The notes below the pieces were generated by a model, which saw nothing but the letters and a program-made list of their open reading frames with translations, had not been told where the DNA came from and did no database searches. A stretch of DNA of 64,000 nucleotides from Olivibacter sitiensis DSM 17696 (GTDB lineage Bacteria > Bacteroidota > Bacteroidia > Sphingobacteriales > Sphingobacteriaceae). A program made the translations under genes and the position numbers. Shown here piece by piece: positions 35,779 to 37,179 of the stretch (position 1 is its first letter; each line of letters opens with the position of its first letter). The stretch spans positions 1-64,000 of the forward strand of contig NZ_ATZA01000025.1 of the NCBI RefSeq assembly GCF_000427965.1, read 5' to 3'.

Positions 35779-36125
35779 TCAGGTTAAAATACGACCCGTC
35801 GTTGATTGCTTCTTTAACAGCCTTCAGGCTAGGACAGTGACAGATAGTTGGAGTTTTGAACAGTCGTTAAATTAAATAAAGTATGAAAAAACTGATATCG
35901 TTAGTTTGAACTCTAAAGAATAAAGACAAGCAATGAGAATACATCGAGAGATATATCTTTGGTTGAAAAGCTCCATCTGCTGCCCTAACTTTAAAATAAC
36001 AATAGGCAGAACCTAAGTTTCATATTAAGGACAGCAGATCTATTGAGTCAAAGCCAGAGAGTATTTAGGGCAGAACCCATTATCACGATGTTAGCCACTC
36101 AATGCGGAGCATAAATAAACTATTT
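35779..36125 (+). other. GH39 downstream spacer and IS110 5' non-coding end (possible bridge RNA)
   Basis: The first 120 bp (to 35899) appear to be the native GH39-GH2 spacer and end with an orphan ATG and the first codons of the GH2 gene (35882-35899). The next 226 bp are the left end of the IS110 element before its transposase. This end contains complementary segments ATCTGCTG (35975-35982) and CAGCAGAT (36032-36039), enclosing a 49-nt region. IS110-family elements of this orientation encode a bridge RNA here that pairs with target and donor; that the RNA is made here is an inference. Confidence 0.45.
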
Positions 36126-37179
36126 ATGCAAGTATATGGAATAGATTTATCAAAAGAAAAGTTTGACGTAAACTTCTTTGATACAGATGGTAAAGAAAAA
36201 AGCAGGATGGTAAAAAACGGATTGGACTCGATATCGAAATTTCTATCGAAAGTACCCGGAGGTTCTGTGCTATGTGCGGAGAATACAGGTAGCTATGGAG
36301 ATCTGTTAGTCTTTCTGTGTAACCAGTGCGGAGTATCGATAGCACTTGTTCCGGGCTATACGGTAAAACATAGCCTAGGTATCCTTAAAGGCAAGTCAGA
36401 CCCAATAGATGCCGCTCGGTTGCGGGAATACGGGGAGAGGTTCTTTGACAAGCTATCTTTCAAAACATATCAGAGCGAAAGCGGTTCCGAATTACGCCAG
36501 CTTTATTCACTTCGTTCACAGTTGGTTAAGTCTCGTAAAAAATTAAGGACAGGTGAGCATGCCCGGGAACAGATGCCGATGCAGAGCATCCGTGCAAACG
36601 TAATTCTACAGGCTTCATTAGCAGCCCTTGATGAGCAGGTCGGAGCTGTAGAGAAAGAAATGGAACTGATCATCAAGAGTGATGCGGGACTTGTAGAGAA
36701 CTATGAGCTGGCTGTATCGGTGCTGGGGGTGGGGCCGGTAATAGCCACCGACCTCATCATCAAAACAGGAAACTTCAGCACGATCGGCACGGCAAGGAAA
36801 GCAGCTTCATATGCCGGTGTATGCCCCTTTCCCAACGCATCGGGCAACATGGTCGGTAAATCCAGGACAAGCCCGTTTGCCGACAAAGAACTCAAGTCTC
36901 TGCTGTACATGGGAGCAAAATCCGCAGTAAAGCACAACAAGGAGTACAGATTGTATTATCAGAAAAAGCAACAGGAGGGCAAGCCTCATTATCTAATAAT
37001 GAATAACGTTATGAATAAACTATTAAGAACGATCTACAGTGTGGTAAACAGCAAAAAGCCATACTCCAGAGACTACATTTGTCTCGACCCAAGAGAAATT
37101 AACAAAAATGATAACGGCTCCAAAAAAATAGTGGCCTAAAAACTTGTAATTTATTAGAGTATATGAAAAAACTGATATC
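35882..37179 (+). mobile_element. IS110-family insertion within the polysaccharide locus
   Basis: The element (about 1.26 kb, 35900-37161 excluding repeats) carries one transposase and is flanked by 18-bp direct repeats, at 35882-35899 and 37162-37179. The repeat contains the ATG and first five codons of the GH2 gene. No terminal inverted repeats are seen, as expected for IS110. The insertion leaves the GH2 gene's coding sequence whole. Confidence 0.7.
36126..37139 (+). CDS. IS110-family transposase (DEDD)
   Basis: The 337-residue recombinase has the IS110 two-domain layout. An N-terminal RuvC-like DEDD domain includes [31 protein letters not shown] and [17 protein letters not shown]-terminal transposase_20 domain includes [32 protein letters not shown] and [18 protein letters not shown]. 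The frame is complete, so it may be active. I start at the ATG at 36126 (MQVYGIDL); an earlier ATG at 36102 is possible. IS110 recombinases act with a bridge RNA encoded in the element's non-coding end. Confidence 0.9.

Follow-up and report, generated by a model that had tools for sequence, protein, structure and literature searches.

The window, a stretch of DNA of 64,000 nucleotides, contains an IS110 element that sits at the start codon of a GH2 beta-galactosidase-like gene. Without its cores the element spans 35899 to 37162 (1264 bp; all features of the window given here are on the forward strand). Its predicted bridge RNA carries a right target guide that spells the complement of this gene start. 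To the left of the element the GH2 start region stands once more, as 14 additional bp (ATGAAAAAACTGAT, 35883 to 35896). The explanation we lean towards is a guide-led IS110 insertion at the GH2 start codon in the course of which the 14 bp were added.

The recombinase is encoded at 36126 to 37139 (337 amino acids; a longer open reading frame opens at 36102). It matched the Pfam families DEDD_Tnp_IS110 and Transposase_20, scored 159 bits against NF033542 of NCBIfam (cut-off 140) and aligned in a PDB sequence search to chains of ISCro4 (9t56) and IS621 (8wt6). From the ISCro4 alignment and the named residues of IS621, the residues D7, E52, D92, D95 and S239-G240 were putatively assigned by motif. 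The non-coding parts, 227 bp ahead of the ATG at 36126 and 23 bp past the stop, are of the IS110 type and not of the IS1111 type. Terminal inverted repeats are absent, as the only inverted repeat of at least 12 nt between 35700 and 37400 is one internal palindrome. Pfam, NCBIfam and the PDB search concur, and judged by its sequence the element is a member of the IS110 family, as the initial annotation had named it.

The ends were defined by aligning the copies of the element, as had been proposed in the initial annotation. The copies share CGTTAG... from 35899 and ...TTAGAGTAT up to 37162 (the right end, 37154 to 37162) and diverge outside. An AT core dinucleotide flanks the element on both sides, at 35897 to 35898 on the left and at 37163 to 37164 on the right, where it supplies the A and T of the GH2 start codon. 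All 40 right junctions and 24 of the 25 distinct left junctions have the AT core. Left ends were counted only where the start of the bridge RNA was present (26 rows, with L056 appearing twice), and most of the left ends of the genome G003, cut by contig ends, fall outside these 25. In G003 we observed 27 end matches, many of them contig-cut, including 17 distinct right ends with the two variants TTTATTAGAG and TTAATTAGAG.

The genome of the window itself has five further places that match the left end, the right end or both, and one right-end relict. One of the five is a second full copy with 88% identity, and the other four are cut by contig ends. The 12% difference in the interior between the window element and the second full copy makes a mix-up in assembly unlikely. 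More copies were found in genus, family and chosen genomes, so that ten copies with both ends were at hand, the window copy included; two of these (L060 and L071) lack part of the interior. No copy was found in the plasmids and viral contigs searched, and the order and phylum searches gave no additional copies with ends; in the family, order and phylum DNA searches two candidates were scored per genome. A search with the donor-loop pattern matched 10 of 399 genomes and gave no new copies.

We then turned to the repeat that flanks the element. The 18-bp direct repeat TATGAAAAAACTGATATC lies at 35882 to 35899 and at 37162 to 37179 with a spacing of 1280 and is the only exact pair in the window, which has one further match with 3 mismatches (0.10 expected by chance at up to 3 mismatches). 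Its 17-mer core ATGAAAAAACTGATATC occurs exactly twice in the 5.05-Mb genome, both times at this locus; four additional genome matches have 2 mismatches each. The left copy reads ATG AAA AAA CTG ATA TCG TTA GTT TGA, eight codons and a stop, and is thus the start of an orphan mini-ORF (MKKLISLV, 35883 to 35909) that runs into the element. The right copy is the start of the intact GH2 open reading frame of 1187 amino acids (37163 to 40726, with Pfam GH2 domains). The repeat, the orphan start and the excess over a core dinucleotide, all described in the initial annotation, were therefore found as claimed.

The informative part of the 18 bp is 16 bp, namely the 14-bp unit and the AT core. The outer T and C of the repeat match because the right end of the element closes in T and the left end opens with C, and we take their identity with the target to be two chance matches. 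The right-hand 18-mer consists of one base of the element, two of the core and otherwise of target, and this target part is chosen by the guide. The 14 extra bp on the left equal the core and the 12 nt of target that lie to the right of the core. A simple insertion at the start codon predicts the left junction ...AAATAAAGT-AT-CGTTAG, whereas ATGAAAAAACTGAT was observed ahead of the core. None of the nine other two-ended copies has a repeat of at least 10 nt shared between its own flanks (L029 shares 8). The anomaly thus looks confined to the left junction with its 14 extra bp, whereas the right junction looks ordinary for this group of elements. The earlier idea that the junction arose by another route can apply to the left side only.

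At the right junctions the core is followed by a recurrent sequence. ATG stands at the core in 38 of 40 distinct right junctions (the exceptions are L055 with ATC and L058 with ATA) and 25 of the 40 read ATGAAA; the locus queries included ATATGAA, which may favour ATG junctions among the short matches (L064, L065, L007). An open reading frame of at least 100 amino acids is opened by 17 of the 38 ATG junctions, compared with 30 of the 136 sites of the form ATGAA[AG] that the window contains (binomial 0.0016, Fisher 0.006), the background being the window alone and the junctions being drawn from many genomes. Fourteen of these 17 long frames (14 of the 40 right junctions) have a Pfam domain above the cut-off: GH2, dehydratase, alpha-galactosidase, desaturase, rhamnose mutarotase, short-chain dehydrogenase, HlyD, TIM-barrel protein, peptidase M48, DinB, TetR, SusD, topoisomerase and FMN dehydrogenase. 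Among the frames of at least 100 amino acids, L043 and L054 had no domain and L203 stayed below the cut-off; the scan covered 21 of the 22 junction frames of at least 50 amino acids, L067 being left out. Since 16 of the 38 ATG junctions open frames of less than 50 amino acids, the preference is for a sequence typical of starts and not for starts as such. The ATGs that open the long frames were presumably the native starts; the sequence upstream of them has been replaced by the element.

The predicted bridge RNA lies at 35966 to 36115, as judged by fold, alignment and consensus structure; its start is placed from the −7 element and its 3' limit by conservation. Of 200 shuffled sequences, 199 folded less well than the stretch from the left end to the recombinase (z = −3.9). 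Eleven of 12 extracted RNAs were aligned (L004 was omitted, being identical to L003 over the stretch), and the mean column identity was 92% with two variable patches. The mean entropy was 1.15 bits in the left guide, 0.76 in the right guide and 0.16 elsewhere. The consensus structure predicts 37 pairs, of which one shows a double change, with a covariation term of +0.65; as the stems scarcely vary, pair covariation is uninformative here. An Rfam scan gave a sub-threshold microRNA match only.

Read from the core onwards, the sequence after the right end has its reverse complement in the right patch. In the window this right target guide is TAAGTTTCAT (36014 to 36023), the complement of ATGAAACTTA, which matches ATGAAA of the GH2 gene. 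For the ten two-ended copies the match lengths were 6, 6, 7, 6, 2, 7, 7, 7, 7 and 5, a sum of 60 against a shuffled mean of 43.6; this sum was attained by 21 of 20,000 shuffles. Thirteen of 16 copies have a right guide complementary to ATG. As the guide encodes the complement of ATGAA, the element family seeks a start-codon-like sequence. Natural copies with altered guides are found at altered targets: L058, an exception with a known right flank, has the guide ATATAAAC and is located at ATATAAAACC, and a copy with the guide ATGGATAT is located at ATGGATAGTG. L055, the copy with the match length of 2, has a right flank that does not fit its own guide. Behind its right end stands ATCGTTA, which resembles the left end of the element itself, in place of the guide-predicted ATGAAAAA.

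The left target guide region (35992 to 36004) is hypervariable within the conserved RNA and covaries with the left flank. Guides were parsed in 16 of the 25 left ends, and L030 and L033 were added by eye for the covariation test. Scored over 8 nt, the match summed to 107 over 18 rows against a shuffled mean of 81.9, and 0 of 5,000 shuffles were as good; the same 0 of 5,000 was obtained without duplicates and without duplicates and the window copy. The register shifts by one or two bases between copies, which this score tolerates. When the longest common string was taken instead, 2, 9 and 7 of 5,000 shuffles were as good. Five copies in the genomes G001 and G002 (L029, L030, L033, L036 and L038) sit in repeat-like stretches, for example ATGAATGATGAAC, with matching left guides; here the element may have been reprogrammed to a repeat family. 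The left guide of the window copy matches its actual left flank in 5 of 8 positions, no better than it matches the flanks of other copies, and also matches the leader ahead of the first ATG in 5 of 8, with AAATAA as the common string.

Two candidate donor guides were assigned by eye. The left one, AGAGTAT (36058 to 36064), matches the element's right end in the same sense, and the right one, CACGAT (36084 to 36089), complements ATCGT at the core and left end in 5 of 6 positions. As candidates they match the element ends, and since these are conserved, covariation is uninformative for them. Taken together, the sequence comparison indicates that the left non-coding region encodes a predicted bridge RNA that is near-invariant except for two guides, and these covary with the flanking targets.

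How the window element paired and recombined we infer by analogy to IS621. The bridge RNA, with its right target guide complementary to ATGAAA, would lead the recombinase to the GH2 start codon, and recombination at the AT core would join the right end of the element to the GH2 ATG. For the 14 bp a possible course, given as an example, is that the nicked 3' end of the left target was extended over 14 nt of target and then joined to the left end. The 14 bp would thus not be a fixed target-site duplication. According to the available part of PMC11187229, target duplication is not characteristic of the IS110 family, as the initial annotation had also said.

To see how often such units occur at all, exact tandem units of 12–20 bp were counted. 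The 64-kb window and 135 kb of comparison sequence (L088–L117) had none and another 859 kb (L118–L197) had 3, giving a pooled background of 3 in about 1.06 Mb. The set of IS flanks (365 kb), which also contains the GH2-search loci L008–L027, had five rows with such units at three distinct places, L056, L029 and L027. The units of L056 and L029 (14–15 bp) adjoin the left core, whereas L027 is a GH2-search locus without a known element. In L056 (reverse strand) the core is directly followed by an exact tandem doubling of the 15 bp that open the left end. In L029, 14 bp of the left flank are repeated within a repetitive intergenic stretch, and because of this the repeat may predate the insertion. 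None of the right junctions had such a tandem duplication. The left-core duplications are few, two or three cases, but their 14–15 bp units lie above the background rate, and this makes an origin during insertion the favoured reading. Against a duplication linked to insertion stand the left guide of the window, which fits neither candidate left flank well, and the asymmetry between left and right, which is not predicted by the known chemistry.

It is possible, though less likely, that the 14-bp unit was already present in tandem at the GH2 start, for instance by slippage between the TAT triplets that lie 14 nt apart on both sides of the unit, and that the element inserted normally at the second ATG. 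Known processes would suffice for this, the right guide fits both ATGs equally well, and L029 is an example of a repetitive insertion site. However, the left guide does not fit AAAAACTGAT, and with exact units as rare as 0 in 64 kb and 3 in about 1.06 Mb it is unlikely that one stood by chance exactly at the insertion point. More doubtful is an alternative outcome of IS110 recombination in general, in which a nicked core end is extended by about 14–15 nt before the left end is joined, so that a short stretch next to the left core is duplicated. Target DNA would have served as template in the window copy, and the element's own end in L056.

An imprecisely excised circle that carried ATGAAAAAACTGATAT between the right and the left end could have entered an intact start region by a single crossover within the 16–18 bp of homology. 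It predicts precisely the observed direct repeat, and IS110 elements form circles according to the accessible text of PMC11187229, but it requires two unusual steps and recombination over 16–18 bp, so that we regard it as improbable. Recombination of sister copies could have combined an insertion at the start codon with a second one 14 bp downstream. Such a hybrid would explain the AT dinucleotide at both borders of the unit; it is very improbable, since the downstream site reads ATCCGG and the right guide matches only its AT. The idea of a right end that always includes the 18 bp can be dismissed, since TATATGAA is indeed common to many right junctions but the other copies share only the right end and ATG or ATGAA and then diverge, in many continuing an open reading frame, and two copies have ATC or ATA, of which L058 matches its own guide. 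Likewise, the match of the element's right end to the target, ascribed earlier to chance or history, is neither a chance match nor a fixed end in its shared ATGAA, the complement of which is encoded by the right target guide.

The same locus without the insertion, which the initial annotation had proposed to compare, was looked for in related genomes without success, which leaves the order of events unobserved. A search of 399 family genomes with the GH39-like protein (E limit 1e-100) gave no close homologue, the best relative having 47%. For GH2 there was likewise none in 5 genus genomes (best 49%) or in genome contigs (best relative 62% among the best 80 matches).

The gene upstream of the element is GH39-like (34093 to 35778, 561 amino acids, Pfam Glyco_hydro_39 at 3.3e-91). 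The region 28474 to 42816 contains SusC/SusD-like genes (by reading of the sequence), GH39, GH2 and an open reading frame of 724 amino acids without a Pfam match, and looks like a polysaccharide utilisation locus. Ahead of the bridge RNA lies TATCTTTG (35954 to 35961), an exact match to TAHHTTTG, which the available portion of PMC6847099 gives as the −7 promoter consensus of Bacteroidota. By the numbering of that paper, the RNA would start near 35966. The exact motif is present in 17 of the 25 distinct left ends, the window included; in the remaining 8, which come from other genera, the motif is degenerate. The alternative of a Bacteroidota promoter that is re-formed where the ends join was dropped, as the left-end motif deviates from the consensus and the internal TATCTTTG is preferred. 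Scans for sigma-70 promoters and terminators stayed at chance level, with no terminator in the gap that separates the recombinase from GH2.

The element and the GH2 gene have the same orientation, and the recombinase stop is 23 bp from the GH2 ATG. With this direction, this gap and no terminator found, transcripts from the element or from upstream of it may continue into GH2, and the element can sit inside a host transcript. Position −3 is A in the native leader and T in the new one, and by the data in the accessible part of PMC6847099 the translation of GH2 may be weaker. The same source describes Bacteroidota mRNAs without Shine-Dalgarno sequences, so a guide could recognise ATGAAA behind an A/T-rich leader. 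A guide RNA that spells a start codon explains why the element frequently arrives just ahead of genes, in one orientation and with the start codon kept. The duplications at the left end raise a question that can be tested, namely how IS110 resolves its strands.

Start-signal targeting has a parallel in another phylum, where the IS110-family element IS900 of Mycobacterium avium subsp. paratuberculosis reportedly targets translation initiation signals (title of Doran 1997). Here a guide RNA spelling the start codon can be read directly from the sequence; such a guide is not known to have been described for IS900. IS900 carries the hed ORF spanning its complementary strand, as the available text of PMC8141618 describes, whereas no hed-type ORF was found here; the longest stop-to-stop frame on the minus strand has 86 amino acids, start codons not being required. 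With the IS621/IS110 bridge RNA elements, as far as covered by the available parts of PMC11208160 and PMC11208158, the window element shares the recombinase that aligns to the IS621 and ISCro4 chains, the long left non-coding region with a predicted two-loop RNA, the left and right target guides that covary with the flanks, and the overlap of the right guide with the core dinucleotide. It differs from IS621 in its core, AT instead of CT, and in its ATGAA-like target. IS621 rebuilds its promoter at the joined ends, whereas here the −7 element of consensus sequence is internal to the left end, beside the RNA; the predicted RNA, with its inferred start, has no separate 5' stem-loop before the target loop. 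The seekRNA elements ISEc11 and ISEc21 also have their target picked by a non-coding RNA, and ISEc21 moved without duplicating target bases; in the available part of PMC11187229 their targets are not described as start codons. In titles and abstract openings of the literature on IS110 and gene starts, mostly of non-subscription papers, no bridge RNA programmed to start codons was found. In conclusion, IS110 elements with a bridge RNA and the reported targeting of start signals by IS900 are known already, and what appears to be new is a guide programmed to the start codon, as read from the sequence.
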